In this document: positions 36,059 to 37,663 of the stretch, piece after piece
Position numbering within the stretch: position 1 is the first letter of the stretch
Layout: each line of letters starts with the position of its first letter
Source of the DNA: an uncultured Actinomycetes bacterium
Lineage (GTDB): Bacteria; Actinomycetota; Thermoleophilia; Miltoncostaeales; Miltoncostaeaceae
Assembly (NCBI GenBank): GCA_937871165.1
Contig: CALMXK010000037.1
Span: 1-41,010 of the forward strand
Direction: 5' to 3'
Length of the DNA: 41,010 nt
Program-made: the position numbers and the translations under genes
The notes under the pieces: generated by a model
Database searches by the model: none
What the model was told of the DNA's origin: nothing
Seen by the model: only the letters and a program-made list of their open reading frames with translations

Positions 36059-36712
36059 TTACGGTTTCGTGGGCGAGGCGGCAAGGATTGCACGCAGCGA
36101 CGTCGGCCGCCACAGCGCACCGCCGCGTGGCGTGGGCACCCCTTCGCGGTTGAGCGTGTCGCAGATCGCCTGCAGGGTGAGCCCGCGATCGCGCATCTCA
36201 CGAATACGTTCAGCAAGGTCCATGGGCGTCGAGGTGGGACGTCCCGGTCGCCGCGACACGATGGCGTCTTCGGCCTTGGTTCGCGCGATGGCCTCGGCCC
36301 GTCGCACGATGCTGCGTGAGCTCCACCCCGCAGCCGCACTCAGCACGGCGCCGACGACGGCGCCCTGTTCGCTGTCAAGGTCGACCGCGGGTTCCAGCGA
36401 AACGATGGAAAACCCGTCGCGGCCCGCCACGCTCACGAGTTCGGCCAGGTGCTCCAAGTCGTAGGTCAGCCGGTCCAGCCGCGCAACGATGATGCCGTCC
36501 GCTTGGCCGGCCCGGCACGCGGCGATGGCACCGCGAAGCCCCTGGCGCCGACGCAGGCGACCGGAGCGGACCTCCTGCTCGACCCCGGCGAGTTCCCAGT
36601 CGTTCTGCGCGCAGGCGGTCCGGATGACGGCAAGCTGTGCGTCGAGTTCAGGCCGCTCCGCCGAAACCTCCTTCGGCCCAACGCGAAGATATGCGATGAG
36701 CCGGCGCGCCAT
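36059..36712 (-). CDS. Serine-recombinase-like protein with catalytic residues lost
   Basis: A 217-residue protein with a resolvase/invertase N-terminal fold (1-~145) and a C-terminal helix-turn-helix like the start of a Recombinase domain (~160-212, GRPTSTPMDLAERIREM, LTLQAICDTLNREGVPT). The catalytic Ser in the YLRVS motif is Gly12 here (AYLRVGPKE). The third arginine in LDRLSR is Tyr84 (LDRLTY), and the helix E ERE stretch reads SSRS. Arg10, Asp80 and Arg81 remain. It should not be able to cut DNA, so I infer a DNA-binding regulator. ATG 36712 follows TATACT by six bases. No flanking attachment sites or transposase are seen. Confidence 0.85.
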   Translation of the reverse strand: MARRLIAYLRVGPKEVSAERPELDAQLAVIRTACAQNDWELAGVEQEVRSGRLRRRQGLRGAIAACRAGQADGIIVARLDRLTYDLEHLAELVSVAGRDGFSIVSLEPAVDLDSEQGAVVGAVLSAAAGWSSRSIVRRAEAIARTKAEDAIVSRRPGRPTSTPMDLAERIREMRDRGLTLQAICDTLNREGVPTPRGGALWRPTSLRAILAASPTKP

Positions 36713-36718
36713 GGCGGC

Positions 36719-36745
36719 AGTATACACCAACCGGCATTTAGTGTA
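36719..36745 (-). promoter_or_regulatory. Leaderless promoter and operator-like dyad of the recombinase-like gene
   Basis: On the minus strand TATACT (36724-36719) lies six bases before the ATG. A dyad of 8-bp arms with one mismatch, plus-strand TACACCAA (36723-36730), 7 bp, TTAGTGTA (36738-36745), overlaps the -10 and covers the spacer. It sits between this gene and the divergent glycosylase gene, so it could control both. The same 8-mers appear at the DUF2339 promoter. Confidence 0.6.
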
Positions 36746-36769
36746 CGCGCGGCCACGCCGACGGTCCCC

Positions 36770-36781: not shown

Positions 36782-37663
36782 GTGCACGAGATCACGATCA
36801 TGCCGCGTGGCCCGTACTCCCTGCGCCAGTCGGTCGACGCCGGACGGAGCCTCTCGTGGCGACTGGCGGGAAGCACCGTGCAGGTCGCATTTCGCGCCGA
36901 CGACATGCCCGCGTTCGCTCGGATCGGTCAGCTCCCCGACGGGACGCTGACCGGCACGCTCACCACGTCGGCGAACGTCGCCGTGGCCCTCGACGAGTTG
37001 CGATTCGCCCTGGCCGTCGACGACGACCACACGCCGTTTCTCGAGATGGCCGCCACCGACGAGCTGCTCGCGCAGGCGGTGATCCCACGACGGGGTGTCC
37101 GGCCACTTCGCACATCGGTCGCGCAGTCGCTCCTTCACGGCTTTGCCGGCCAGCTCATCGCCGCACGTGAAGCCTGGTCGATCGAGCGGCGCATCACGAC
37201 CGCACTGGGCACGGCGCACGAAGGCCTGCTCCTTCCCCTCAGCGCAGACGAGCTGCGCGCAGCGGGTTCGGCGACACTCGTCAAACACGGATTGGCACCC
37301 AAGCGGGCGGGCGCGCTCGCCGGCGCGGCACGGCGACTCGATCTTGACGCCCTTCGCCGTGAACCGGCCGACGTGGCGATCGCACGACTGCGGCGTGAGC
37401 CGATGATCGGCCCGTGGACGAGCGCCCTTGTCGCGCTCAACGGCCTCGGAAGTTATGCGTATGGCATCGCGGGCGACCTCAACCTCATCCGTCTTTGCAG
37501 CAACCTCCTTGGCCGGCGTGCGAGCGTTGCCGACACCACTGCGCTTCTTGCCCGCTACGGTGAATGGGCGGGACTTGCCAGTTTGCACCTTGCACGCCAT
37601 CCGCTTGCGGGCGTGCGCGGCGCACATGGTGCTCCCGCTGGTACTACGACCTTCGGACCATAG
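36782..37663 (+). CDS. AlkA-like DNA-3-methyladenine glycosylase (HhH-GPD)
   Basis: A 293-residue base-excision glycosylase. The N-terminal ~100 residues match the AlkA-type TBP-like domain. The helix-hairpin-helix region is REPMIGPWTSALVAL and the catalytic Asp232 is in GIAGDLNLIRL, equivalent to AlkA Asp238. The family removes alkylated purines. GTG 36782 is favoured by the TATGGT spacing; ATG 36800 is the alternative. It diverges from the recombinase-like gene with only 69 bp between. An ~80-nt gap separates it from the histidine kinase. Confidence 0.88.
   Translation: MHEITIMPRGPYSLRQSVDAGRSLSWRLAGSTVQVAFRADDMPAFARIGQLPDGTLTGTLTTSANVAVALDELRFALAVDDDHTPFLEMAATDELLAQAVIPRRGVRPLRTSVAQSLLHGFAGQLIAAREAWSIERRITTALGTAHEGLLLPLSADELRAAGSATLVKHGLAPKRAGALAGAARRLDLDALRREPADVAIARLRREPMIGPWTSALVALNGLGSYAYGIAGDLNLIRLCSNLLGRRASVADTTALLARYGEWAGLASLHLARHPLAGVRGAHGAPAGTTTFGP

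Follow-up and report, generated by a model that had tools for sequence, protein, structure and literature searches.

In Tn3, the resolvase TnpR autoregulates by binding res, which contains the promoters of two divergent genes, and this binding regulates both tnpR and tnpA (PMC7157771). Co-option of a dead mobile-element enzyme as a regulator has been documented for a tyrosine recombinase, MrpR, which is the master repressor of the SP-beta prophage (PMC10516654). In part of a review of recruited mobile-element genes, serine recombinases figure as resolvases and invertases and not as transcription factors (PMC8987985). A limited search of the open-access literature found no serine-recombinase counterpart of the MrpR type of co-option.

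The gene studied here lies in the window, by which we mean the whole 41,010-nucleotide stretch that was analysed. The genome (205 contigs, 2.64 Mb) belongs to a GTDB family in which the named relatives, Miltoncostaea among them, are members of the Thermoleophilia. From the comparisons below, the product most likely works as a regulator of genes and no longer as an enzyme, and we consider it fairly probable that this serine recombinase has lost catalysis and has been retained to bind DNA at a specific sequence and to repress its own promoter. The features of the locus are collected in Table 1.

Table 1. Features of the dead-recombinase locus, in positions of the window
Feature	Positions	Strand	Basis or remark
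Dead serine-recombinase homologue gene	36059..36712	-	ORF of 217 aa, ATG at 36712
Catalytic domain of the resolvase type (residues 1-148), with the fold retained in the model	36269..36712	-	Pfam, AlphaFold model, Foldseek
C-terminal DNA-binding domain (GRPTSTP...LTLQAICDTLN...VPTPRGG..WRPTSLR), the part best conserved across the clade	36080..36250	-	Column invariance, HTH_62/Recombinase
Codon 12, Gly replacing nucleophile Ser10	36677..36679	-	Ala in the 12 other clade members
Codon 84, Tyr replacing Arg71	36461..36463	-	Tyr invariant, 13/13
Helix-E region, residues 131-138, E118/R119/R121/E124 lost	36299..36322	-	Alignment
23-bp palindrome TACACTAA-ATGCCGG-TTGGTGTA (minus-strand reading), putative operator	36723..36745	.	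Sole full match in the genome
-10-like hexamer TATACT, 6 nt upstream of the ATG, overlapping the right end of the palindrome	36719..36724	-	
-35 position, with the weak hexamer CGTACA (most relatives have TTTACA), at 17-nt spacing from the -10	36742..36747	-	
Divergent neighbour, AlkA-like DNA-3-methyladenine glycosylase	36800..37663	+	phmmer to 2yg8, E 2.5e-6

The window protein has the same fold as the TnpR proteins of Tn3 and gamma-delta, and its putative site likewise lies between divergent genes and overlaps promoters. TnpR, however, is an active recombinase working on a three-part res site inside a transposon, whereas the window protein has lost catalytic residues, is accompanied by a single palindrome (plus a half-site where the gene is linked to ino1) and has no linked transposase. 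Nothing marks the gene as belonging to a transposon that carries tnpA and a three-site res: the ORF lists for the surrounding 4.5 kb contained no recognisable transposase, and among the neighbours that were identified are ino1, trp genes and the alkA-like gene. MrpR resembles the role proposed here in being a recombinase fold without catalysis turned DNA-binding repressor, but its tyrosine-recombinase fold is unrelated to the serine-recombinase fold of the window protein, and it is a prophage regulator acting on repeated elements and not a chromosomal single-site autorepressor. Outside the class, the nearest intact proteins are small actinobacterial serine recombinases of plasmids, phages and chromosomes ('recombinase family protein'), which show about 27-30% identity and have the same domain order (PF00239 and a PF07508-like helix-turn-helix). 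Unlike the window clade, they keep S10, R71 and the helix-E residue E118, and their palindromes have spacers of 8 bp, as against 7 bp in the window family and 6 bp in the more distant clade member L062.

Pfam identified a Resolvase domain (PF00239, E 4e-21) and a Recombinase domain (PF07508, E 7e-7) in the 217-residue protein, the PF07508-like C-terminal helix-turn-helix standing behind the N-terminal resolvase domain. An AlphaFold2 model, made from only six window and clade sequences (mean pLDDT 74, pTM 0.54, with low confidence at residues 132-160), matched serine recombinases in Foldseek, namely Bxb1, gamma-delta, TP901-1 and Tn3. In this model the overall serine-recombinase fold is retained. 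The resolvase N-terminal fold of catalytic serine recombinases is thus present by both Pfam and Foldseek, and the preliminary description was right that fold and helix-turn-helix remain.

Residues were numbered by alignment to gamma-delta resolvase. Substitutions are seen at S10 (G12), R71 (Y84), E118 (S131), R119 (S132), R121 (S134) and E124 (R137), and R8, Q19, R45, D67 (D80), R68 (R81) and R125 are retained. Residues typical of catalytic serine recombinases are missing from all 13 members of the clade described below: the nucleophile Ser10 is Ala in 12 and Gly in the window copy only, Arg71 of the LDRLxR motif is Tyr in every member, and Glu118 and Arg119 of helix E are lost in every member. 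The alignment therefore confirms the earlier reading of the nucleophile as Gly12, of the second arginine of LDRLSR as Tyr84 and of the ERE helix as altered. Relatives from the Thermoleophilia and Actinomycetota outside two degenerate lineages keep S10, R45, R68, R71 and E118, as do five plasmid and phage relatives, and intact relatives at about 30% identity retain all catalytic residues.

Orthologues with 51-60% identity occur in 11 further genomes of the window's GTDB family; the gene is present in 12 of the 42 family genomes and in seven of the 12 genera. The thirteenth member, L062, comes from a genome of another family (G222). Nearly all of these sequences derive from metagenome-assembled genomes. 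In a maximum-likelihood tree a branch supported at 100/100 sets the 13 dead members apart, with the intact L063 and a second degenerate lineage near the clade. By these comparisons catalysis would most simply have been lost once, in the clade ancestor. The preliminary description had proposed looking for a clade that shares the glycine. Tree and alignment do give one well-supported clade, whose 13 members share these catalytic losses; loss of the serine is common to all of them, but the glycine itself is not shared, the others having alanine. Nor is the window gene a decaying copy among close intact homologues, the nearest intact relatives lying outside the clade.

Pairwise dN/dS within the clade was 0.04-0.33, which indicates purifying selection. 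In every pair tested the DNA-binding domain showed a lower dN than the catalytic domain, and 30 of its 56 columns are invariant, compared with 31 of 139 for the catalytic domain. The shared losses within one clade, the purifying selection and this pattern of invariance together argue that the gene is functional and that its DNA-binding part is under the strongest selection, which upholds the earlier view that the intact ORF points to selection. A viral origin of the dead clade was considered and rejected: IMG/VR held no relative, and phage and plasmid matches were either distant (about 27-30% full-length identity) or short and limited to the helix-turn-helix region.

A conserved palindrome of 23 bp, TACACNAA-N7-TTNGTGTA, is found upstream of the gene, 10-16 bp ahead of the start codon in nine of the 12 family members, and is exact or has one mismatch in these nine genomes. 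In all nine it is framed by -35-like and -10-like hexamers at a fixed spacing of 17 nt, and it would thus overlap the gene's own promoter, as in the TnpR arrangement, the promoter being recognised by sequence only. The -35-like hexamer is TTTACA in seven of the nine and TGTACA and CGTACA in the remaining two, and the -10-like TAnnnT ends 6-12 nt before the start codon, a distance as for leaderless or near-leaderless transcripts. The -35 of the window copy is weak (three of six positions), which accounts for the failure of a promoter scanner at its default threshold to find a match within the window. In L062 the half-sites are the same but stand 6 bp apart, which makes a 22-bp site, and they lie beside TTGACA.

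A scan of 25 genomes allowing up to one mismatch found the palindrome at the nine genes and at one extra position, upstream of citrate synthase in G011, which we took as a chance match. No other full match occurred in the 25 genomes, and the scanned genomes without the gene had none at up to one mismatch. A wider regulon was rejected, since two-mismatch scans of five genomes gave extra matches at the level of a reversed-pattern control. A generic palindrome search against shuffles gave weak results on single sequences (for the window, 25 of 30 shuffles did as well); the argument is carried by the conservation of the site from genome to genome. As the sites are few and the genomes related, the co-occurrence of gene and site amounts to fewer than nine independent observations. 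Three genomes (G008, G017 and G011) have the gene without a recognisable palindrome, and autoregulation would therefore not be universal.

Divergence from ino1, assigned by Pfam as myo-inositol-1-phosphate synthase, is the arrangement in eight of the 12 family members (genera g3, g5, g6 and g12), and most of these genomes have an additional TACACNAA-like half-site about 23 bp upstream. The gene lies 3' of trp genes in G008, G017 and G011 and beside a different small ORF in G222. The AlkA-like neighbour in the window had no match in Pfam. At ino1 the palindrome is absent from the gene-less genomes G002, G009 and G010, and also from G008 and G011, where the gene is located elsewhere; the window genome lacks an ino1 match, yet has the palindrome. 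The site, which occurs beside ino1, the alkA-like gene or a small ORF and is absent at ino1 in genomes without the gene, thus accompanies the dead recombinase and not the neighbour. The genomic place about which the preliminary description asked is thus conserved in part, being ino1-divergent in eight of the 12 members from the family and different in the others. The genomes G000 (that of the window), G001, G004 and G007 had no match to myo-inositol-1-phosphate synthase, though their relatives have one.

A 26-bp GTAC...GTAC palindrome occurs upstream of some intact chromosomal relatives (L063, L064, L080 and L002) and in L063 has the form GTATAGCAA-N8-TTGCTATAC. L002 is encoded in the window's own genome (G000:C129), and its upstream palindrome is GTACACACA-CGGAACGG-TGCGTGTAC; its nucleophile and R71 are intact, but it has Ser at the D67 position. 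The GTAC-ended site of the active enzymes may be a recombination site, an autoregulatory site or both, and in the simplest history a resolvase-type autorepressor would have given up recombination while retaining repression. The odd length of the 23-bp site, as against the even 26 bp in intact relatives, would fit the loss of a symmetric 2-bp crossover. We do not rely on this argument because L062, within the dead clade, has a 22-bp site and the intact L003 and L092 have odd palindromes.

In the mechanism that we propose, the recombinase ancestor of the clade lost DNA cleavage once, and its descendants would have been retained as repressors that recognise a specific DNA sequence. Bound as a dimer to the palindrome of TACACNAA half-sites, which extends from the -35 to the -10 of the gene's promoter, the protein would block RNA polymerase and so keep its own level low. 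In the ino1-divergent genomes the same complex could perhaps also affect the ino1 promoter, as the further half-site suggests. We infer binding of the palindrome by the window protein, and repression upon binding, from the sequences, and the same would hold for any signal that the protein senses. The earlier suggestion of a transcription factor derived from a recombinase is thus supported by the clade, by selection and by the promoter palindrome, and in its DNA-binding and regulatory part it is our interpretation of them. Against this mechanism speak the three members that lack a recognisable palindrome, the weak -35 of the window copy, the small number of sequences behind the structural model, the single target, which is odd for a regulator and was not widened by the scans, and the retention in the catalytic domain of R8, Q19, R45, D67 and R68, which goes beyond what DNA binding alone should require.

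The palindrome could instead belong to an unrelated repressor, with the dead recombinase doing something else, for instance being architectural or regulating unlinked loci through other sequences. Palindromic operators are common, and three members keep the protein without the palindrome. We nevertheless regard this explanation as unlikely, since the palindrome is found only with the gene, is absent in gene-less relatives, stays with the gene beside ino1, the alkA-like gene or an unrelated small ORF, and has a similar GTAC-ended counterpart upstream of some intact relatives. In the Tn3 and Sin systems, accessory resolvase dimers bind non-crossover sites, and the window protein might in the same way be an accessory or dominant-negative DNA-binding subunit that modulates an intact serine recombinase of the same cell, the more so as the window genome also encodes the nucleophile-intact L002 and L003. 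These two, however, are only about 30% identical to it and have different upstream palindromes, and no clade-wide partner was seen beside the gene, so that we consider such a role very unlikely.

Continued enzymatic activity with a substitute nucleophile, for example the invariant Tyr84, Thr83 or Ser50, seems more improbable still. All 12 members from the family have Tyr84 and Thr83, and R8, R45, D67 and R68 persist, but the helix-E residues are gone, usually with Pro in their place, and no alternative active-site serine was found, Ser50 being an ordinary 'SG' serine that is also present in intact enzymes. The independently degenerate protein L071, from the second lineage, likewise has Tyr at the Arg71 position, which suggests that the tyrosine is a structural filler. 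Several active-site substitutions would also be expected of a decaying pseudogene, an explanation that we find scarcely credible and that is already contradicted by 13 intact ORFs spread over eight genera, by the dN/dS range given above and by the single origin.

If autorepression by the dead recombinase is correct, the protein and its site would constitute a compact 23-bp operator with its cognate repressor. The steps of such a co-option would be traceable by sequence, from intact relatives with an upstream palindrome through one inactivation to a conserved, operator-like sequence spanning the promoter.

The second degenerate lineage is a separate group of serine recombinases in other Thermoleophilia families. 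Two of its members, L072 and L077, have two PG_binding_1 domains ahead of the resolvase domain by Pfam, together with hydrophobic stretches that resemble a signal peptide and a transmembrane helix; the recombinase part of these fusions is degenerate and has a conserved helix-turn-helix. They are possible candidates for membrane-anchored, DNA-binding one-component sensors. Tentatively, and with somewhat more doubt than conviction, we suggest that the Thermoleophilia turned serine recombinases into dedicated regulators at least twice, once in the soluble autorepressor clade and once in the membrane-sensor-like lineage of L072 and L077. A similar peptidoglycan-binding/recombinase fusion was recognised by eye in L078; the genomes concerned for these three fusions are G352, G354 and G173. 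L075 and L076 are degenerate recombinases with a transmembrane-like N-terminus, and L073 and L074 have a second resolvase-like segment in front, also recognised by eye; active-site residues are substituted in all four.
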